Assembly (NCBI RefSeq): GCF_018704065.1
Contig: NZ_JAGUQP010000016.1
Span: forward strand, 1-64,000
Source of the DNA: Desulfovulcanus ferrireducens
GTDB taxonomy: Bacteria; Desulfobacterota; Desulfovibrionia; Desulfovibrionales; Desulfonatronovibrionaceae
Length of the DNA stretch: 64,000 bases
Direction: 5' to 3'
Below are positions 35,458-46,626 of this stretch, one piece after another. Position 1 is the first letter of the stretch; every line of letters starts with the position of its first letter. The notes under the pieces were generated by a model. That model was not told where the DNA came from. It made no database searches and worked only from the letters and a program-made list of their open reading frames with translations. Both the position numbers and the translations under genes were made by a program.

Positions 35458-38400
35458 ATGAAACTAGGTCGAAGAGAGTTTATCAAACTTTCAGCAGCGG
35501 CCACAGCAGCAACCGCATTTGGCGGCTTGGGTTTCGATTTAAAGCCTACAGCTGCTCGTGCCCAGCTGTTAAAACTTAGGTGGGCCAAAGAAAGCACTTC
35601 CATTTGCTGCTATTGCGCTGTAGGATGTGGTCTTATTGTCCACTCTTCAAAAGAGGGTCCTGGGCGGGTAATTAACGTTGAAGGCGACCCTGACCATCCC
35701 ATCAACGAAGGTGCTCTTTGTGCCAAAGGCGCTTCCATTTACCAGCTTGCAGAGAATGAAAACCGTTTAACCAAGGTCTTGTACCGAGCTCCCGGCAGTG
35801 AACACTGGGAAGAAAAATCCTGGGACTGGGCATTGGATCGCATTGCCCGCAAAATTAAAGAAACCAGGGATAAAACCTTTGTTCGCTATAATTCCAAAGG
35901 ACAAGAAGTAAACCGCTGTGACGGTCTTGCCTCTGTAGGTTCAGCAGCCATGGACAATGAAGAATGCTGGATCTACCAAGCCATGCTCAGAAGCCTTGGC
36001 CTGGTGGCTATTGAACACCAGGCGCGTATCTGACACAGCGCCACTGTAGCGGCTCTGGCAGAGTCGTTCGGACGCGGTGCTATGACCAATCACTGGATCG
36101 ACATAAAAAACAGTGATTGCATCCTTATCATGGGCAGCAATGCCGCAGAAAACCATCCCATCTCTTTTAAATGGGTGATGAAGGCCAAAGACAAAGGCGC
36201 CAAACTCATCCATGTTGACCCACGCTTCACCAGAACTTCCAGTAAAGCAGACATCTACGGACCTATTCGTTCCGGGACAGATATCGCTTTTTTAGGTGGT
36301 ATGATTAAGTACATCCTGGATAACGATCTTTATTTTAAAGAATATGTGGTCAACTATACCAACGCATCTTTTATAGTAAACCGAAAATTTAAATTTAAAG
36401 ATGGCCTATTTTCCGGATTTGATCCTAAAACCGGAAAATATGACAAGTCCTACTGGGCGTTTGAACTGGATAAACACGGCAATCCCAAAAAAGATCCTAA
36501 ACTCAGAAGCAGCCGCTGTGTATTCCAGCTCTTAAGGAAACACTTTAAACGATACACTTTGGATCGCGTATCCGAAGTGACAGGTATGCCCAAAGAAAAA
36601 GTCCTGGAAATTTACAAGGCTTTCACAGCCACAGGAAAACCAGACAAGTCCGGAACCATTATGTACGCCATGGGCTGGACCCAGCACACTGTGGGTGTGC
36701 AAAATATCCGTGCCATGGCCATAATTCAACTCCTCCTGGGCAATATAGGTGTTGCTGGCGGAGGTGTTAATGCCTTGCGCGGCGAATCTAATGTACAGGG
36801 CTCCACTGACCATTGCTTGCTATACCATATTTTGCCTGGCTATTTGAAAACGCCCAAAGCCTCTCAACCGACACTGGATGCGTACAACAATAAATATACA
36901 CCAAAGAGCAATGATCCGAAGAGTGCCAATTGGTGGCAAAATTATCCTAAATACTCAGCCAGCCTGATCAAATCCATGTATATGGACGCTGATGTTCATG
37001 AAGCCTACCACTGGCTGCCTAAATTGGATGATGGTCAAAATGCCTCCTTCATGGTCATCTTTGATGAAATGCTGAGAGGTAAAATAAAGGGCTTCTTCGC
37101 CTGGGGACAAAACCCAGCTGCAGGTCTGGCCAATTCAAACAAGGCCCGCAAGGCATTAAGCCAATTGGATTGGATGGTTGTGGTCAATATCTTTGACAAC
37201 GAGACCGCGTCCTTCTGGAAAGGACCGGGCATGGATCCCAAAAAGGTAAAGACAGAAGTCTTTTTCTTGCCCTGTGCGGTTTCCGTGGAAAAGGAAGGTT
37301 CTATCACCAATTCGGGCCGCTGGATGCAATGGCGCTACGCTGCAGCCAAACCCCTTGGTGATTCCAAACCGGATGGAGATATCATCTGCGAACTGTTTGA
37401 GCGGATAAAACACCTGTACCAGACCGAAGGAGGAGTTTATCCTGAACCTATCCTCAACTTGAGCTCAGAAAAATGGGTCAATGAAAAGAACGTATACGAT
37501 CCGCATCGGATAGCGAAAATTATCAATGGCTACTTCCTCAAAGATGTGACAGTTAAAGGCAAAACCTTCAAAGCCGGTACATTAGTGCCAAGCTTTGCTT
37601 ATCTCCAGGCTGACGGCTCTACCTGTTCCGGCAACTGGCTGTATTGTGGCTCATACACAGAAAAAGGTAACATGGCTGCCCGACGCGATAAAACCCAAAC
37701 ACCTGAGCAGGCTAAGATTGGCCTTTTCCCCAACTGGTCATGGTGCTGGCCGGTCAACCGCAGAATCCTGTACAATAGAGCATCAGTTGATCTTAAAGGA
37801 CGTCCCTATGCACCACAAAAACCTGTCATTGCCTGGAATGGCCAGAAATGGGTTGGCGATGTACCTGACGGAGGATGGAAGCCAGGAACCAAGTACGCAT
37901 TTATCATGCGCAAACATGGCCACGGTCAAATCTTTGGCCCGGGCAGGGCTGATGGTCCATTCCCAGAGTATTATGAACCTTTGGAGAGCCCTGTTAAATC
38001 ACATCCTTTCTCTAAGCAATTCAACAATCCAGCCGCTCTCACGTTCAAGGGTGATTTAGAGAAATTGACTTCAGCTGATCCAAGGTATCCGTTTGTCTGC
38101 AGCACTTACCGCGTTACCGAGCACTGGCAAACCGGAGTTATGACCAGATGGCAACCCTGGCTCTTGGAAGCTGAGCCACAACTTTTTGTCGAAATGGACC
38201 CTGAACTGGCCAAAGAACGCGGAATTAAAAATGGTGACAAGGTTATCGTAGAAAACGAAAGAGGCAAACTGGAAGCAGTGGCCATAGTTACCTCCAGACT
38301 GCGGCCGTTTAAAATCATGGGCAAAACTGTACATCAGGTAGGTATACCCTGGCATTATGGCTGGGTACATCCTAAAGATGGTGGTGATGCGGCCAATATC

Positions 38401-38478
38401 CTCACTCCGTCAGTGGGCGATCCAAACACTGGCATCCCGGAAACCAAAGCCTTTATGGTTAATGTTCGCAAAAAATAA
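35458..38478 (+). CDS. fdhA: Formate dehydrogenase alpha subunit, selenocysteine-containing
   Basis: 1006 residues when TGA at 36031-36033 is read as selenocysteine (residue 192). The frame continues without a break: the context is HQARI-Sec-HSATVAALAESFGRGA, the family active-site segment. The N-terminal Tat signal has RREFIK, so the protein is exported folded. A [4Fe-4S] motif CCYCAVGCG...ALCAKG follows (about 50-85). Then come molybdopterin domains (NTSIGS-like IMGSNAAENHP, MGWTQHT, GNIGVAGGGVN) and the C-terminal dinucleotide-binding domain ending GDPNTGIPETKAFMVNVR. It oxidises formate with Mo or W; which metal is not decidable here. Ribosome site AAGGAGG. Confidence 0.95.
36031..36066 (+). 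promoter_or_regulatory. Sec codon and bacterial SECIS hairpin
   Basis: TGA at 36031-36033 is followed 16 nt later by a stem-loop: CGGCTCT (36050-36056), loop GGC, AGAGTCG (36060-36066), seven pairs including one G-U. Distance and a G in the loop fit bacterial SECIS elements that recruit SelB within the coding sequence. selABC are not in this window. Confidence 0.8.
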
Positions 38479-38489
38479 GGAGGTAGCTT

Positions 38490-39218
38490 ATGGACGGAAA
38501 AACCTTTTTTATAGATCTCACTCGTTGTACTGCCTGCCGGGGATGCCAGGTTGCCTGTAAGCAATGGCATAAATTGCCGGCAGAAGAGACATACAATTGG
38601 GGCTCACATCAGAACCCCAAAGACTTGTCCTACATCACATATAAATTGGTGCGCATGAAAGAGGTTGTCGAAAAAGGAGAGATTAAAGACTGGCTCTTCT
38701 TTCCTGAACAATGCCGCCACTGTGTCGAACCACCCTGCAAAATGACTGCTGACATGTATGATGAGCAGGCTATTTTGCAGGACGAGCTGACCGGTGCAGT
38801 AATATTTACCGAACGTACCAAAAAACTGGATATTGAGGAGATCCGCGGGGCCTGTCCCTATGACATCCCCAGACAGGATGAAAACTCCAAAATCATGTCC
38901 AAGTGTGATATGTGTCTGGACAGAGTACACAACGGACTCTTGCCCGCTTGCGTGCAAACCTGTCCTACCGGAGCCATGAACTTTGGCGACCGGGAAGAAA
39001 TGCTTGCTCTGGCTAAAAAAAGACTGAGCAAGGTCAAAAAATACTATCCCGATGCAGTACTAGGTGATCCGGAGTCTGTACGAGTCATTTACCTCTTTCA
39101 GACCAAACCGGTAAACTACCATGAATTCGCTGTAGCTGGTTTGTCCTTGCCGCCGGTTATGAGCCGAAAGCAAGCGCTGGCGAAATTCTTTCGTCCGTTC
39201 AAAAACATGCGCGGCTAG
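38490..39218 (+). CDS. fdhB: Formate dehydrogenase iron-sulfur beta subunit
   Basis: 242 residues with four cysteine motifs for [4Fe-4S] clusters: CTACRGCQVACK (about 12-23), CRHCVEPPCK, GACPYDIP, CDMCLDRVHNG and CVQTCPTG. It has no signal peptide, so it would be exported with FdhA by the Tat route. There is no gamma (cytochrome b) subunit after it, pointing to a soluble periplasmic enzyme that passes electrons to a cytochrome c or another membrane complex. It starts 11 bp after fdhA with AAGGAGG. Confidence 0.93.
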   Translation: MDGKTFFIDLTRCTACRGCQVACKQWHKLPAEETYNWGSHQNPKDLSYITYKLVRMKEVVEKGEIKDWLFFPEQCRHCVEPPCKMTADMYDEQAILQDELTGAVIFTERTKKLDIEEIRGACPYDIPRQDENSKIMSKCDMCLDRVHNGLLPACVQTCPTGAMNFGDREEMLALAKKRLSKVKKYYPDAVLGDPESVRVIYLFQTKPVNYHEFAVAGLSLPPVMSRKQALAKFFRPFKNMRG

Positions 39219-39359: not shown

Positions 39360-39803
39360 CTATTTAAGTCGTGTTATATGCACAGCTACAGGGGAACGTC
39401 TTACTATTTTTTCTGAAGTACTTCCATAAAAAAACGTCTTAATGCCACTTAGACCATGAGAACCTACTACTACGAGATCGTAATCGCCACTTTCAATTTC
39501 TAAAAGTCCTTCAACATAAGGAATCCCACGCCTTACTTTTTTAGTATACTGCACTTCTCTCAATTCAGGAATTTTTATTTCCAATTGTTTGAAATTATCA
39601 TTTATTTCTTCATCTATTTTCTCCTTTATCTGTGCATAATCACTTTTATTAATAAACAGAGAAAATTGACTTTCATCATGAGCAACATGCAGTATTGTTA
39701 AATTTGACTTAAAAAACAATGCCATCTGAGCAGAAACTTTTACAGCATGTTCTGAGTCCAGTGAAAAATCTGTCATAACCAAAATGTGCTTATAGATTCC
39801 CAT
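39360..39803 (-). CDS. Universal stress protein (UspA family)
   Basis: 147 residues. N-terminal YKHILVMTDFSLDSEHAVKV and the nucleotide-binding loop VVGSHGLSGIKTFFYGSTSE (G-2x-G-9x-G-S pattern), so it is of the ATP-binding subclass. Ends VVRRSPVAVHI-like. It is a single-gene unit, ribosome site AGGGG. Function is likely a stress-related nucleotide-binding protein; targets unknown. Confidence 0.92.
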   Translation of the reverse strand: MGIYKHILVMTDFSLDSEHAVKVSAQMALFFKSNLTILHVAHDESQFSLFINKSDYAQIKEKIDEEINDNFKQLEIKIPELREVQYTKKVRRGIPYVEGLLEIESGDYDLVVVGSHGLSGIKTFFYGSTSEKIVRRSPVAVHITRLK

Positions 39804-40503
39804 TACTTTACCCCTATTGTTTTATAATTAAAGCTTTTAAAAAACTACATTGTAAACCTGTGAATTTTCTATCAATTGTTTATAAAGCCCTATGGCAAAG
39901 GCGCAACAAACCCTCCACTAAAGAACAATTAAATTATTTTTTAACAACCAAAATAACATATCTGAACCATCTTGACTTTAATGAGCAATAAATATAATTT
40001 TACAACTTTCTGAAAAGGTTAGCACACATTTTTGTAATTTTCCATTTCTGTAATGATACTATTTGCGTTATGCTAACTTTTCCTGTGGACATATCCATAA
40101 AAGGCAAAAGATCTGTTTTATCGCAACTTAATTCAATGTTTACTTTCTCAAAATTATGTGACACTGTTCATCAAGTAAATCTAGTGACGCATACAAACCA
40201 CATAACTAAAAATTAGCTGTCATTATTTTAAAAGTCAATGCCATAGCAAATCTTTTAGTAAAGACAAATTTCTAAAAGGACTACTCTGCCAGATGTTGTC
40301 CCCCCCGTTTTTTCTGACCTCTAAATTTTCTTTTGCAGCACAAAGCTTGAAGGCAAGAGCACCTTCCTTGCATCTTAAGAAACATCACATAGTAGATATT
40401 TATTTTTGGTGCTGATATTATATAGATATTTTTTTATGATTATTTATCCGCAAACTTTTTTAAATTTCTATTTTATAAAAACTATTAAAACATAGGAAAT
40501 GTG
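39804..40503. other. Long AT-rich region upstream of the ATP-grasp gene
   Basis: Seven hundred bases without a supportable gene. GTTAGCA (40019-40025) and TGCTAAC (40071-40077) form a spaced inverted repeat of 7 bp with 45 bp between. The lower GC here and in the next gene than in the fdh genes is consistent with horizontal acquisition of the cluster that follows. No clear promoter is assigned. Confidence 0.4.
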
Positions 40504-41889
40504 ATGAGCAAAACAATTTATTCTAACATTAAAATTAAATCTGATACATATTACTTTCTTTATATTGGCGAGCTTAAATCTTATGGGTTAAATTTTTTCT
40601 TAAAAGATTTTTTTCAAAAACTGTACAATAAAAAAATTGATTTTATCGCTATAGTTTCTGATTTTTTTGATCAGTACTATTATAAGAATCTAATTGTAAT
40701 AAACCCAGAAGCTGAAAAACACTTGGAGAAAACCGGGAAAAAGGTATGCTGCCGAATCGATGCCAAACAATTTATGAAAGAAGTATCAAATAATGATTTT
40801 GTACAAGACTTAATACAAAAAATCTTAACACAGCAAAATCACTTATATATTTATATGTATGAGAGCCTGCCCGAAATGACTCTGGATCAAATTGACGGGG
40901 TATCTGTTCTGGGACCCAAAAGTAATATTGCTCATAAGCTTAATAACAAAATTTTTCAATACAAGACATTTAACAAAATCGTTCCCATGCCGGACTTTGA
41001 CATTTGTCAAGGGCTAGAAGACCTCCTGGCTAAAGCAAAAAAAATGCGGAGTGAATGGGAAGATGGCATTTTTATCAGCCAAGAGTATAGCGCAGCTGGT
41101 TCTTGCAGCGCTGTAACTAGCACAAGACAAGATATTCTAAGAAAATTTAACGACCAAAACGCAACATATCTTATTTCAAGATATATCCCACATGAATATG
41201 ACCCTACTGTCCTCGCAATAGTTGCGAATGAAAATGATGTATATATTGCAGGTGTAGCTGATCAGTGTATAGTAGATGGGAATAGGTTCGTTGGCTCCAC
41301 ATACCCTTCAGTCCTACCAGATGAAATAATTAAAAAGTTAAAAGAGTATACTGTCAAGGTGGGTCAACAAATTGGAAAATTGGGATATCGAGGTATATAT
41401 GGATGCGATTATATAGTGGTTGATAATAATATATATTTTATGGAAATTAACTCAAGAAAACAAGGGACAACAATGGAATTTTGTTGTACACTTGAACAAC
41501 TATTACCCAAAGGTTCTCCCATGTTGCCGGAGTTAGAATATTATGCTGTGAAGGAAAATAGGTTTCCAAGCAATACAATTGAATTAAAAGACAAAACAGA
41601 TAATATATACTGGGGCACATATAATATGAAAATCAACAACGTTGCTACAACTGACGGATATATACCCCAGGATCCAAACGAAAGAGAAATTTTTAAAAAA
41701 GTTGCTAACAAAGAGTTAAAGAAAGATTTTATTATAATGGAACATATTGGAAATGATTTTATTATCAAATCCGGAACCTTTTTAGGAAGAATCGTTTCTG
41801 TGGCGAATAACCGTGAAGACATGTTAAGCGGTATAGAGTATGGCAAGCGCTTTCTAAAGTATACAGTTAAAGAGACATTTAAAATCTAA
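40504..41889 (+). CDS. ATP-grasp family ligase
   Basis: 461 residues. The N-terminal half (about 1-130) is AT-rich and unlike known domains. The ATP-grasp core (about 135-330) has SNIAHKLNNKIFQYKTFNKI, a lysine/loop region with SQEYSAAGSCSAV, and the metal site GYRGIYGCDYIVVDNNIYFM then EINSRKQGTT. ATP-grasp enzymes join a carboxylate to an amine through an acyl phosphate. The start at 40504 is favoured over the GTG 3 bp upstream because AGGAAA is 6-9 nt away. It precedes the KamA-like gene by 244 bp. Confidence 0.82.
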   Translation: MSKTIYSNIKIKSDTYYFLYIGELKSYGLNFFLKDFFQKLYNKKIDFIAIVSDFFDQYYYKNLIVINPEAEKHLEKTGKKVCCRIDAKQFMKEVSNNDFVQDLIQKILTQQNHLYIYMYESLPEMTLDQIDGVSVLGPKSNIAHKLNNKIFQYKTFNKIVPMPDFDICQGLEDLLAKAKKMRSEWEDGIFISQEYSAAGSCSAVTSTRQDILRKFNDQNATYLISRYIPHEYDPTVLAIVANENDVYIAGVADQCIVDGNRFVGSTYPSVLPDEIIKKLKEYTVKVGQQIGKLGYRGIYGCDYIVVDNNIYFMEINSRKQGTTMEFCCTLEQLLPKGSPMLPELEYYAVKENRFPSNTIELKDKTDNIYWGTYNMKINNVATTDGYIPQDPNEREIFKKVANKELKKDFIIMEHIGNDFIIKSGTFLGRIVSVANNREDMLSGIEYGKRFLKYTVKETFKI

Positions 41890-42084
41890 AAAAGTAAACT
41901 AGATATGCGCTGAAGTTTAAGGTCCGGACTCCACAACTCATAACCACGTTAAAATTATTGATTGTCGAATAGTCTTAGTCCACCATGCAAAGTTTGATTC
42001 TTTTCATGAGCATTAGTTTTCGATGCGCATGCAAAAAATCTGTGCTGATATTTTAAAATAATTTAACATATAACATTCAGTATT

Positions 42085-42113
42085 CCCCTGTAAAAAACTC
42101 TTTTTTTGCGGGG
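42085..42113 (+). promoter_or_regulatory. Leader hairpin before the KamA-like gene
   Basis: CCCC and GGGG flank an A-run/T-run stem (GTAAAAAA pairing with TTTTTTTGC), ending 7 bp before the ribosome site CAGGAGG. It could limit or terminate read-through from the ATP-grasp gene or stabilise the mRNA start. The rest of the 244-bp gap holds nothing I can support. Confidence 0.4.
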
Positions 42114-42133
42114 CTACAGTCAGGAGGAAATCA

Positions 42134-43717
42134 ATGTCTAATTTAGAGGTAAATGATCCCAGCCTAGATGATTATACTAAAGAGTTGTTTGAGGAACTTT
42201 ATGCTCCAGGCAGTGCGATGGGCACCGTACCAGACGATCTAAAAAAGGAAGTTCTTTCTTTATTAGAAGTTGCCCAGCAAAAAAATTTAACAACGCCAAT
42301 TATAAAACTTTTTGAAATTTTAAGAAAAACAAAAAAGGAACACGGTATCTCGCCTGATGAGTTCGGGATATCTAAAAATGATCTATTAAAATTAGCCAAA
42401 AAACATGAGCAAATAGATGAACATGAAGTGAGTATTGGGGGGCGCGTAGGCAGAGCTCTTCCTATTGTTCAGGCCGCCAACTCAAGAATTCAAGAATACT
42501 TACAGGTAAAGGATAAAGAAGCTCCTAGTGGAATTGAACTTTGGCCAGATATAGAAAAAAATATTCAAAAAATAAAAAAGGTTTTAGGCATTAGTGACGA
42601 CGATTGGAATACTTTTAAAGGCCAGCTCAGATATGCCATTGAAGATTTTGAAACCTTAGCCCAAATACTAGACCTTCCCGAAAAAGCTATCAAAGATATT
42701 GCCCGCGTTACCAAGCACTACCGTATGAGACTGACCCCATATTATGCGAGCCTTATCATGCCTGGCCGAATTAATGACCCAGTGCTTCTCCAGTCCGTCC
42801 CGACCGGAGAAATGGTTGACAATGCAGGGGTAGAAATCCCTCCAGTGGCAGCTGACCACTCTCCAGCCAGGCTAATTGACCAGTTTTATCCCAGAGTTGT
42901 GACCATCAAAGCTACCAATATATGCGCCATGTATTGCACACATTGTTTAAGAATAGCACATATTGGCAAAAAAGACCGTATCTACAGTAAAGAAGCATAC
43001 CGAGAAGCCTTTGAGTACATCAAGAAAAATAGCTTTATCCGAGATGTCTTAATAACTGGAGGAGATTCATTTGTTCTGCCCAACGAATATATTCGCTGGA
43101 TACTAAATGAATTAGACTCCATTGATCATGTAAAAGTTAAACGACTTGGCACCCGTATTCCAGTAACCACCCCACAGAGAATCGATACAGAACTACTTGA
43201 TATACTTGAAGAAAGCAATGATATCAAGCCGATTCGTGTAGTGACTCAGATTAATACCGCACAGGAGATAACTCCTGTCTCCAAAGAAGCATTTAAACAA
43301 ATCTCTAAGAGAGTAAGTGCTGTACTCAATCAAGCAGTGTTACTGCGTGGGATAAACGATTCAAAAGTAAAAATGTGGAAACTTTGCGAGACAATACATG
43401 AAGCATATGTTCGTCCATATTATGTCTTTAATTGTAGTTACCGCAACCCACAATTTATTCACCTCAGAGTGCCTATAGAAAAAGGTCGAGATATTATTGA
43501 AAGTATGTACGGAAACATATCCGGCGATGCTATTCCGAGATATATAGCTACAGCCGGAGGCAAAATACCTCTTCACAGAAGCAATGTGATCGGACGTGAC
43601 AATAACGACCTAATCTTGAAAAAACCATGGAGCGGCGAAGAAGTAAAATATCCTGATGCAGATGCAAATATATATGAAGATAATGACAATTTCGCATTCG
43701 CAAAATACAATAAATAA
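42134..43717 (+). CDS. KamA-like radical SAM aminomutase, substrate not lysine
   Basis: 527 residues. The N-terminal 150 residues are helical and extended relative to lysine 2,3-aminomutase. The radical SAM motif CAMYCTHCLR (about residue 257) fits CxxxCxxC, followed by VLITGGDSFV. The PLP lysine is probably that in TAGGKIPL, near the position of Lys337 in the clostridial enzyme. The two aspartates that bind the lysine side-chain amine appear to be absent: the Cys-Asp position reads NCSYRN, and the Asp before the glycine run is absent. It would interconvert an alpha- and a beta-amino acid other than lysine; glutamate or a peptide-linked residue are candidates. Confidence 0.85.
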   Translation: MSNLEVNDPSLDDYTKELFEELYAPGSAMGTVPDDLKKEVLSLLEVAQQKNLTTPIIKLFEILRKTKKEHGISPDEFGISKNDLLKLAKKHEQIDEHEVSIGGRVGRALPIVQAANSRIQEYLQVKDKEAPSGIELWPDIEKNIQKIKKVLGISDDDWNTFKGQLRYAIEDFETLAQILDLPEKAIKDIARVTKHYRMRLTPYYASLIMPGRINDPVLLQSVPTGEMVDNAGVEIPPVAADHSPARLIDQFYPRVVTIKATNICAMYCTHCLRIAHIGKKDRIYSKEAYREAFEYIKKNSFIRDVLITGGDSFVLPNEYIRWILNELDSIDHVKVKRLGTRIPVTTPQRIDTELLDILEESNDIKPIRVVTQINTAQEITPVSKEAFKQISKRVSAVLNQAVLLRGINDSKVKMWKLCETIHEAYVRPYYVFNCSYRNPQFIHLRVPIEKGRDIIESMYGNISGDAIPRYIATAGGKIPLHRSNVIGRDNNDLILKKPWSGEEVKYPDADANIYEDNDNFAFAKYNK

Positions 43718-43720
43718 CAT

Positions 43721-44914
43721 ATGACAAACAAAATAATTGTGGAATTTTTCAAGGAACATAAGCAGAAAATGCTTATGTTCCTTGAAAAAATAGTACTGAC
43801 TAACAGCTGGACTTACAACAAACCGGGTGTAGATAGAGTAGTAGATGAAATTATATCTGAATTATCAGGTTTAAATCTACATTTTAAAAGATATGAAAAC
43901 TCTGATTTAGGAGACAATTTAACAGCATCTACAGTAAAAAAAGATCCACAAAAAATATTAATTTGTGGTCACACAGATACTGTATTTCCTCCTGATAAAG
44001 AATTCAATTGTTTTGAACACAAACATGGAGCCAAGCTCATAAATGGGCCTGGCGTGATCGACATGAAAGGAGGACTAGTAGTCGGCATATTTGCCCTCAA
44101 AGCCCTTCATCACCTTGGAGTCTTGCACGACATCCCAATAACCTTTATCTTTAATTCAGATGAAGAGATCGGGTCTCCTAAATCAAAACAACTAATAATT
44201 TCCGAAGCCCGGCAAAGTTCTCTGGCCTTTGTTCTTGAATGTGGAGGGCTAAACGGCGAGGTCGTTACGGGAAGAAAAGCTAAAATGAATGTCCGCATAG
44301 ACGTCAAAGGCAAGGCGGGGCACGCCGGCTTTGCCCATACTGGCAAAAAAAGCGCTATTTTAGAACTCGCGCACAAAGTTATTGCGCTCGAACAATTGAA
44401 TGATTATGATCTTGGAATAACTGTAAACGTGGGCCAGATAGAGGGAGGCATAGGGCCAAACACTGTTCCCGAAATGGCTTCTGCCTATCTGGATATCAGG
44501 TTTAATAAAAAAACGGATGAACGTAAAATTAAACAAGATCTAGACGCCATTTGTGCACGCAGTGTCATTAATGGCACACAAACCAAATATAAAATTCTTT
44601 CTTCACGTCCACCTATGGAACAAACAAAACAGAACAAACTGTTGTTCTCTGAAATTCAACGCATTGCCCACGGCATGAACATTACCATTTGGGAAGAGTT
44701 CCGCAGTGGCGTATCCGATGCAAACTTTATCGCCCAAGCAGGAATTCCTGTTATTGACGGCCTAGGACCAGTTGGAGATGCAGATCATAGCTCTGATGAA
44801 TATATGATTGTCGATAGCTTTGTTGAAAGAGCAATATTATTTACCAACATCCTCCTTCACTTTGGCCTGGGTGAAAAGGCTAAAGCAAAAACCCTATCTT
44901 TGCACGAAGTTTAA
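43721..44914 (+). CDS. M20 family metallopeptidase (CPG2-like)
   Basis: 397 residues. The metal-site motifs are GHTDTVFP, GPGVIDMKGG, FNSDEEIGS, LECGGLNGE and the late DGLGPVGDADHSSDE. The dimerisation domain has GKAGHAGFAHTGKKSA. It resembles glutamate carboxypeptidase G2 and related enzymes, which cut amide bonds of N-acyl or peptidyl amino acids. It follows the KamA-like gene by 3 bp and is certainly cotranscribed, giving the aminomutase and the amidase a common pathway. Confidence 0.88.
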   Translation: MTNKIIVEFFKEHKQKMLMFLEKIVLTNSWTYNKPGVDRVVDEIISELSGLNLHFKRYENSDLGDNLTASTVKKDPQKILICGHTDTVFPPDKEFNCFEHKHGAKLINGPGVIDMKGGLVVGIFALKALHHLGVLHDIPITFIFNSDEEIGSPKSKQLIISEARQSSLAFVLECGGLNGEVVTGRKAKMNVRIDVKGKAGHAGFAHTGKKSAILELAHKVIALEQLNDYDLGITVNVGQIEGGIGPNTVPEMASAYLDIRFNKKTDERKIKQDLDAICARSVINGTQTKYKILSSRPPMEQTKQNKLLFSEIQRIAHGMNITIWEEFRSGVSDANFIAQAGIPVIDGLGPVGDADHSSDEYMIVDSFVERAILFTNILLHFGLGEKAKAKTLSLHEV

Positions 44915-45030: not shown

Positions 45031-46626
45031 ATGGATAAATATAAATTGAGTTTGAACGAAGAGTTAGAGCAGACAGAGCAAAAGCTGGCCGTCCTGATCA
45101 ACAAAAGAACTCGTCTTTTGGGCAAAATTGCTCAAAAAAGAATGGAGAAAAATAAAAGCCTAGTGGATTCTGGTCTGGAGAAAAGGCTCTGGTCATTATG
45201 GAAAAATCATTTCAAAGGGGAAAACCAGAGGGCTTACCGCCAATTGTTTACTATTTTAAATAGCCTTAGCTATGGCCAGGCTGAGAAGAAAAAATTTTCA
45301 GACAAACCTTTTTGTCTATACCCCACCAAAAAGCCACTAAATGTCCACATAGATGGCCCAAGAGATATTTTTCAAGCCAGGATATGCACTTTTTTGGCCG
45401 GCTTGGCAGACAAACCTGTACACATAGACAATTTCCCCATCAACGACTCTCTCATCGAATTAATTAAAGCTTTAAACCAGTGTGGAGCTAGACTTACATG
45501 GAAAGACAAAATTTTTAGTTCAGAGCCTGCTACCTTAACCTGTGCCAACAAATCCATCTTTGTAGGCCAAAATGCATTCAATTTTTATCTTTTGCTCTGT
45601 CTAAGCTTAGGTGAAGCCGGAGTAACAAAATTTACCAGTGCATCTAACCTCAAGATCCTGAATTTAAAACCTATCCAGGACATCCTGCCCCAATTGGGAG
45701 CCAGGCTAAGTTCTACCTACCCTCAAAGCTTCTCTCTCCCTGCCAAACTAGAAGTCAGCGGGAAAATTCCAGGCCAAATCACCCTGCCAGAGGCTGTTGA
45801 CCCGGATTTTGTCCTGGCCCTTGCTTTAGCAGCATGCACCTATTCCAGTCCCTTGACCATTAACTTTTCACATGGGGTTCAGCTCGAAAAGGTCAAACAA
45901 ACCCAAAGAGTTATGCAAAGCTGGGGCATAAAAACTTTACTTAGCGAGCAGAGTCTAACCATTCACCCAGGTCGTCCGGAACTTTTAAAAAATTTTCATT
46001 TGCAATTGGATCCCATTCTTAGTGCCTATCTACTGGCTCTACCACTCTTTGCTGGCGGAGAGGTAACACTTCGGGGGCATTGGCCAAAAGACAGTTCACT
46101 TGCTACGGCCATTTACAATCTACTTGGACAGGCTGGTCTGAAGCTTACGACTTCAGCAGATCAGATTGCTGCCATCCCAGCTCACAGACCTGCTGAATGT
46201 TTTATTGACATAAGCGACTACCCTGAACTCGCTCCCCTTGCTCTGCCTTTGCTACTTTCCTTTAAAAGCTCGGCCACCATATTTATCCCTACCGACACTG
46301 AGCAGGCCGAATTTGCTATAGACCTGTTAAAATTTCTAAATTTAGATTTTAATCTCTACCCAAGTCGTCTGGAAATCAACTTTCAAGACAAGGGTCCCAG
46401 AAAAGAACTCTGGCATAGCCCTGACCCATACTGGACATTAGGCTATGCACTGAGTTCATTTATTTTCAAGGGTGTTTGTCTGGCTAATCCTGGCAGTTTA
46501 ACCGCTATCTGGCCAGACTTCTGGAAAATATTTCAAAATCTACCGGACCCGCAAAATCAAATAACACCAACTAGTGCAGGAGAGAAAAATGACCAACCAG
46601 GTCGAAGGCGATTCATTGTCTCGTGA
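45031..46626 (+). CDS. Degenerate EPSP-synthase-like protein with helical N-terminal domain
   Basis: 531 residues. The first 60 residues are a charged helical segment resembling a chorismate mutase type II fold (LINKRTRLLGKIAQKR). The rest follows the EPSP synthase double-barrel pattern, including IDGPRDIFQARICTFLAGLA, LALALAACTY and an AIYNLLGQAGLKL segment. The usual active residues are lost: the PEP/shikimate motif GSKS reads GPRD, the NAGTAMR loop reads VGQNAFNFYLLL, and the RxKES region reads WPKDSSLA. It is probably a catalytically dead homologue; annotating it as AroA would be misleading. Ribosome site GAGGAAA. Confidence 0.72.
   Translation: MDKYKLSLNEELEQTEQKLAVLINKRTRLLGKIAQKRMEKNKSLVDSGLEKRLWSLWKNHFKGENQRAYRQLFTILNSLSYGQAEKKKFSDKPFCLYPTKKPLNVHIDGPRDIFQARICTFLAGLADKPVHIDNFPINDSLIELIKALNQCGARLTWKDKIFSSEPATLTCANKSIFVGQNAFNFYLLLCLSLGEAGVTKFTSASNLKILNLKPIQDILPQLGARLSSTYPQSFSLPAKLEVSGKIPGQITLPEAVDPDFVLALALAACTYSSPLTINFSHGVQLEKVKQTQRVMQSWGIKTLLSEQSLTIHPGRPELLKNFHLQLDPILSAYLLALPLFAGGEVTLRGHWPKDSSLATAIYNLLGQAGLKLTTSADQIAAIPAHRPAECFIDISDYPELAPLALPLLLSFKSSATIFIPTDTEQAEFAIDLLKFLNLDFNLYPSRLEINFQDKGPRKELWHSPDPYWTLGYALSSFIFKGVCLANPGSLTAIWPDFWKIFQNLPDPQNQITPTSAGEKNDQPGRRRFIVS

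Follow-up and report, generated by a model that had tools for sequence, protein, structure and literature searches.

The window, by which we mean the whole 64,000-nucleotide stretch of Desulfovulcanus ferrireducens DNA that was analysed, carries three uninterrupted open reading frames on its + strand, with a gene of opposite orientation lying 5' of them:

39360..39803, - strand: UspA-type universal stress protein (PF00582)
40504..41889, + strand: ATP-grasp carboxylate-amine ligase, 461 aa (PF02655, 42.1 bits)
42134..43717, + strand: KamA-family radical SAM/PLP aminomutase, 527 aa (TIGR00238, 232.3 bits)
43721..44914, + strand: M20 metallo-amidase/peptidase of the carboxypeptidase G2 (CPG2) type, 397 aa (PF01546/PF07687)

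An alternative GTG start for the ligase is possible at 40501. The ligase and the mutase are separated by 244 bp and, as a first-pass annotation of this DNA had already pointed out, the mutase and the amidase by 3 bp (43717/43721). The same annotation had named the three families, and profile searches bear it out: the ligase matches PF02655 (ATP-grasp_3) well above the gathering score of 23.2, the mutase exceeds the TIGR00238 cut-off of 199.2 and the amidase matches Peptidase_M20 and M20_dimer with 80.4 and 65.8 bits, respectively. Its description of an AT-rich block applies mainly to the ligase (33% GC) and the 0.7 kb upstream of it (29%), but not to the mutase (39%) and the amidase (40%), which lie near the window mean of 42%. 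Riboswitch control was considered and rejected, since the search of the whole window against Rfam returned no riboswitch and the upstream matches to Na+-I and c-di-AMP elements were at chance level.

The conservation of this arrangement was explored in a collection of species genomes by using the mutase sequence as the sole query, which gave 80 loci. Upstream sequence of 1.6 kb or more was available for 67 loci, and in 56 of these the ligase directly precedes the mutase on the same strand; it is elsewhere in one and absent in 10. On the downstream side 67 loci extend for 1.5 kb or more, of which 51 have the amidase immediately after the mutase and 16 lack it. The median intergenic gaps of the trio are short across these loci. 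Furthermore, a search with the ligase in 60 genomes related to that of the window led to 19 loci with flanks read, every one of which adjoins the mutase. These counts demonstrate that ligase, mutase and amidase form a real conserved operon, with an adjacency far beyond chance; the first-pass annotation had been prepared to give up its proposal if the three genes were not neighbours in related genomes, and in the relatives they are. According to the record titles, the hosts of the 80 loci are mostly sulfate-reducing Desulfobacterota, many of them from marine or soda-lake groups, together with some metagenome-assembled genomes labelled Spirochaetes, SAR324, Hippea or Deferribacteres, to which binning errors may contribute. 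No match to the ligase was found among 72,556 plasmids. The literature searched, a body that leaves out much of the subscription literature, contains no description of the trio, in keeping with the earlier remark that no system with exactly these three genes was known.

The AF2 model of the ligase (pLDDT 92.5) shows a full ATP-grasp fold. In an alignment of 39 relatives the active-site block GYRGIFGCDYI...FxEVNARKQGTT is conserved, and the Mg/ATP residues Asp302, Glu314, Asn316 and Arg318 are invariant. PurT, PurK, GAR synthetase, biotin carboxylase and PylC are tied as structural matches of the model (Z 24-26), and thus the predicted fold does not reveal the substrate; a sequence search for a solved structure of the ligase found none. 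BesA and LdmS, both amino acid ligases, match the ligase of one related locus with another type of mutase (L116, see below) only weakly in profile comparisons, which is no more than a hint. The closest solved relative of the amidase is CPG2, an enzyme that releases C-terminal glutamate. The metal ligands His84, Asp114, Glu149, Glu173 and His356 and the catalytic Glu148 align with those of CPG2, and all six are invariant in 14 members, among them the one from L116.

The mutase was aligned to the lysine 2,3-aminomutase (KAM) structure 2a5h, in which Asp293 and Asp330 (C. subterminale KAM) bind the lysine side chain, Arg134 binds the carboxylate and Lys337 is the PLP lysine. The cluster cysteines Cys264-Cys268-Cys271, Arg273 (KAM Arg134) and the PLP lysine Lys477 (KAM Lys337) are kept, as expected for the KamA family. 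As the first-pass annotation had suspected, the two lysine-binding aspartates are replaced: the Asp293 position is taken by Ser435, a serine in 63/63 family members, and the Asp330 position by Thr473, a threonine in 61/63. Two residues past the lost Asp293, within a one-residue insertion, stands Arg437, which is invariant in the family and belongs to a unique pocket motif, SYRNPQF. The loss of both aspartates together with the gain of an arginine argues against a basic side chain and would fit a substrate with an acidic one. The protein also bears a helical N-terminal extension of ~115 aa. Its predicted model (pLDDT 82.9, residues 233-280 being poorly modelled) has 2a5h as closest structural match, with a Z of 33.1 over 306 residues at 2.2 Å.

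None of the equivalog cut-offs is reached by the mutase. The lysine 2,3-aminomutase model TIGR03820 gives 288.7 bits against a cut-off of 525.4, and the best curated match, the model TIGR04368 of glutamate 2,3-aminomutase (Eam), an enzyme reportedly described by Ruzicka and Frey in 2007, gives 349.3 bits against 650. In characterised Eam, Lys and Asn replace Asp293 and Asp330 of KAM; a reference protein scoring 716 bits (L124) has K and N at these positions and is consistent with this, whereas the window mutase has Ser plus the inserted Arg, and Thr. The genome of the window encodes, besides this mutase and a third KamA-like protein, a separate AblA (777 bits against the cut-off of 525) that keeps both Asp293 and Asp330, with the acetyltransferase directly downstream in a complete ablA-ablB pair (L104 7777-9931, contig C1), which indicates that lysine mutation is served elsewhere. 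By residues and profile scores alike, the window mutase falls outside the lysine mutases.

A second lineage bears on the question of the substrate. When a profile of the ligase was searched against 297 genomes spread over the phylum, six of them matched: in two the ligase stands beside a mutase of the window's kind, in two beside an Eam-like mutase and in two alone. The Eam-like mutases of the second pair (genomes G117 and G192) follow ligases 39-40% identical to that of the window and score 632.5 and 607.4 bits to TIGR04368, just below the cut-off of 650; they have Lys at the Asp293 position, as in Eam, and Thr at the Asp330 position, and are themselves followed by an M20 amidase of the trio's kind (40% identical). 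A glutamate mutase of this quality occurs in only 3 of 294 genomes of a comparable sample, and two of these three adjoin the ligase. The identical order of ligase, Eam-like mutase and M20 amidase is found in six genomes, namely G117 and G192 plus G348, G351, G352 and G354, the last four from the order of G192. Two of the six, G192 and G354, encode ligase and mutase as a fusion, in a continuous frame of 922 aa and 934 aa, respectively, which ties both activities to one pathway. To our knowledge, an Eam accompanied by a ligase has not been described; the ligase and amidase around an Eam-like mutase in a second lineage, and the in-frame fusion of ligase and Eam in two genomes, are new here.

Since a near-canonical Eam is found with the same kind of ligase and amidase, and is twice fused to the ligase, the substrate class of the window mutase is most likely glutamate or a close analogue, and β-glutamate is favoured among the possible products. 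In a maximum-likelihood tree the mutases of the window's kind group with the Eams and apart from KAM/AblA, with support of 91/96 and on a long branch. At the positions distinguishing KAM from Eam, the window mutase resembles Eam in 10 cases, KAM in 7 and neither in 14, a pattern compatible with a shift to a near analogue. Such a shift, which would count against glutamate itself, is also suggested by the missing Lys and Asn of Eam, the score of 349 bits and the long branch.

We propose that the operon serves the biosynthesis and turnover of a glutamate-derived β-amino-acid conjugate, probably a compatible solute, a reading to which we give an even chance; both substrates, the product and the role in the cell are inferred. 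The substrate of the radical SAM/PLP aminomutase in this pathway would be an acidic amino acid, most probably L-glutamate, whose amino group migrates from C2 to C3 to give β-glutamate or a close analogue. The ATP-grasp enzyme would then activate a carboxylate as acyl phosphate and couple it with an amine, leading to a β-amino-acid amide or dipeptide, and the CPG2-type M20 enzyme would cleave the amide once the compound is no longer needed. The TAXI-TRAP transporter often encoded next to the trio may recover the compound or a precursor. That ligase and amidase are fed by a β-amino acid had been put forward in the first-pass annotation; the idea agrees well with the conservation of the trio, the non-lysine character of the mutase and the interchange and fusion with Eam. 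Points against our reading are the loci that have no ligase (10 of 67) or no amidase (16 of 67) and the failure of the Rfam search to find an osmoregulatory RNA element.

The compound would probably act as a compatible solute of marine and saline sulfate reducers, a role made plausible by the salt-requiring members and the frequently adjacent TAXI-TRAP genes. Named isolates with the mutase locus come from saline habitats and include Desulfosediminicola, which requires NaCl (PMC8497536). The complete trio is present in Desulfosediminicola flagellatus and Desulfopila aestuarii (L035 and L052). β-Amino acids are common osmolytes of methanogens, β-glutamate being a major one in marine species (PMC1224877), and in the ammonia oxidiser Nitrosopumilus maritimus β-glutamate reaches 730 mM (PMC8269262). 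The use of β-amino acids by methanogens and the pairing of a ligase with a peptidase at NAGGN loci thus provide a precedent for such an osmolyte. Our literature search, which lay outside most subscription papers, returned no paper linking β-glutamate with sulfate reducers. Should the operon indeed lead to β-glutamate or its conjugate, bacteria that are common in anoxic marine sediments would become a genetically defined source of this compound, and a new osmolyte chemistry would stand beside the abl and NAGGN systems. More tentatively, we regard it as possible that β-glutamate dipeptides or amides constitute an undescribed class of osmolytes, synthesised by mutase and ligase, recycled by a dedicated amidase and distributed widely among the sulfate reducers of marine and soda-lake habitats. 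The operon also offers a new candidate ATP-grasp ligase for β-amino acids, a branch of the KamA family whose specificity pocket is new and a ready set of marker genes for an easily assayed pathway.

The systems closest in logic are NAGGN, ablA-ablB and PylB-PylC, none of which has the trio. The likeness to loci for N-acetylglutaminylglutamine amide (NAGGN) drawn by the first-pass annotation holds as an analogy of how the systems work: a ligase and a peptidase share one operon for a dipeptide-type osmolyte, as in PA3459-PA3461 (PMC8070244). The proteins of the trio fall, however, in other families than the asparagine synthase, GNAT-family ligase and glutamyl aminopeptidase of NAGGN, which has no aminomutase, and no asnO-type asparagine synthase or Ngg GNAT ligase was recognised among the conserved neighbours of the trio. 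The ablA-ablB system likewise uses a KamA aminomutase to make a β-amino acid osmolyte, but with lysine as substrate, an acetyltransferase in place of the ATP-grasp ligase and no amidase. The Bacillus subtilis kamA-yodP-yodQ operon resembles the trio in having a KamA mutase beside an M20-type enzyme; it differs in its lysine mutase, its acetyltransferase and CoA-transferase genes and the absence of an ATP-grasp ligase. In PylB-PylC, too, a radical SAM amino acid mutase supplies an ATP-grasp ligase, PylC, whose fold is broadly that of the ligase here (Z 24). PylB, however, is a lysine carbon-skeleton mutase and not a KamA enzyme, and the pyrrolysine pathway has no amidase and leads to an amino acid that is genetically encoded. 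With Eam itself the window mutase shares the KamA-family radical SAM/PLP chemistry, the loss of the lysine-binding aspartate pair, a basic residue at the Asp293 position or next to it and, in the other lineage, the accompanying ligase and amidase; it is set apart by its score, its pocket residues and its extra N-terminal region.

The neighbouring genes can be read in favour of synthesis or of breakdown. Of the 28 loci that have both the ligase and long flanks, 18 carry TAXI-TRAP genes within ~10 kb, placed upstream and divergent, downstream and convergent or downstream and parallel. They also adjoin the Eam-type locus of G117, whose TAXI protein is up to 73% identical to those of the ligase loci, and in the window's genome a TAXI-TRAP pair (68% identical) is located on another contig. 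The nearest solved relatives of these TAXI proteins are TAXI binding proteins, among them 1us4, annotated as 'putative GluR0 ligand binding core'. GntR-FCD regulators, which are more typical of catabolic control and therefore count against a biosynthetic reading, recur at some loci; UspA proteins turn up again at several of the related loci and may or may not belong to the system. At ligase-less loci with long flanks, a gamma-glutamyltransferase is present in 5 of 6 and a Dpp/Opp importer in 3 of 6, as opposed to none of either at the 28 ligase-bearing loci (Fisher p 2e-5 for the gamma-glutamyltransferase, indicative only because the sequences are related).

These observations feed the alternative of salvage or catabolism, in which the M20 enzyme, helped in some genomes by the gamma-glutamyltransferase, hydrolyses imported gamma-glutamyl or β-amino-acid peptides, the mutase runs from β to α and the ligase repairs or stores. 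Besides the genes of the ligase-less loci, it can call upon the peptide-binding protein of one of them (L033), which is nearest to the glutathione binder GsiB, and upon the TAXI-TRAP uptake genes and the GntR-FCD regulators. The commonest form of the locus, however, has an ATP-consuming ligase directly upstream of the mutase or fused to it, which fits synthesis better than breakdown, and for the operon as a whole we think salvage rather improbable. Since gamma-glutamyltransferase, often with a peptide importer, accompanies the mutase where the ligase is missing, a salvage version may nevertheless exist; in this view the ligase-bearing form would make the compound and the ligase-less form would salvage a gamma-glutamyl or similar peptide.

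It is unlikely, in our view, that the mutase instead acts on another amino acid, such as glutamine, aspartate or a larger acidic substrate, for a secreted metal binder, signal or antibiotic and not an osmolyte. Such a product would agree with a mutase below every equivalog cut-off, with its unique pocket motif and 115-aa extension and with the weak resemblance of the L116 ligase to BesA and LdmS. Against it stand the saline habitats of the named isolates and the near-canonical glutamate mutase of the second lineage, and the conserved neighbours of the trio include no exporter, carrier protein or tailoring enzyme. Finally, a lysine 2,3-aminomutase working towards β-lysine or N-acetyl-β-lysine, with the ligase and amidase as unrelated neighbours, would suit the KamA family and the closest fold, but is largely refuted and hardly credible given an aspartate pair lost in all relatives, 289 bits to TIGR03820 where 525 are needed, an intact ablA-ablB pair in the same genome and the conservation of both neighbours.

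Several minor observations were made around these loci. An ABC transporter for polar amino acids is encoded beside the ablA-ablB pair of the window's genome. In several soda-lake members (L048, L062 and L064) the ligase has a further, distantly related KamA-like gene (~27% identical) as its divergent neighbour. The ligase-less mutase-M20 loci comprise L033 (6-20 kb), L036, L075, L079 and L089; their gamma-glutamyltransferases, often two per locus, have no obvious signal peptide and several are accompanied by peptide ABC importers, and MttB-like methyltransferase genes (cluster 39) are found near three such loci. The two lone ligases of the phylum-wide search (genomes G046 and G056) are divergent homologues (L118 7973-9397, and L117 at G056:C1:1405045-1406379), and the 15-17 kb read at these loci contain neither mutase nor amidase; the ligase of L118, in which the active-site block has ARKHGAALE in place of ARKQGTTLE, may serve a new function. 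Immediately 3' of the trio, the window encodes at 45031-46626 a divergent EPSP-synthase-like protein (53 bits to AroA, cut-off 287), which may be an atypical enzyme of the shikimate pathway. At 35458-38478 two open reading frames together form a single selenoprotein gene for a formate dehydrogenase alpha subunit, with an in-frame TGA (ARI-TGA-HSATVAAL) at the usual selenocysteine position and the iron-sulfur subunit encoded at 38490-39218.
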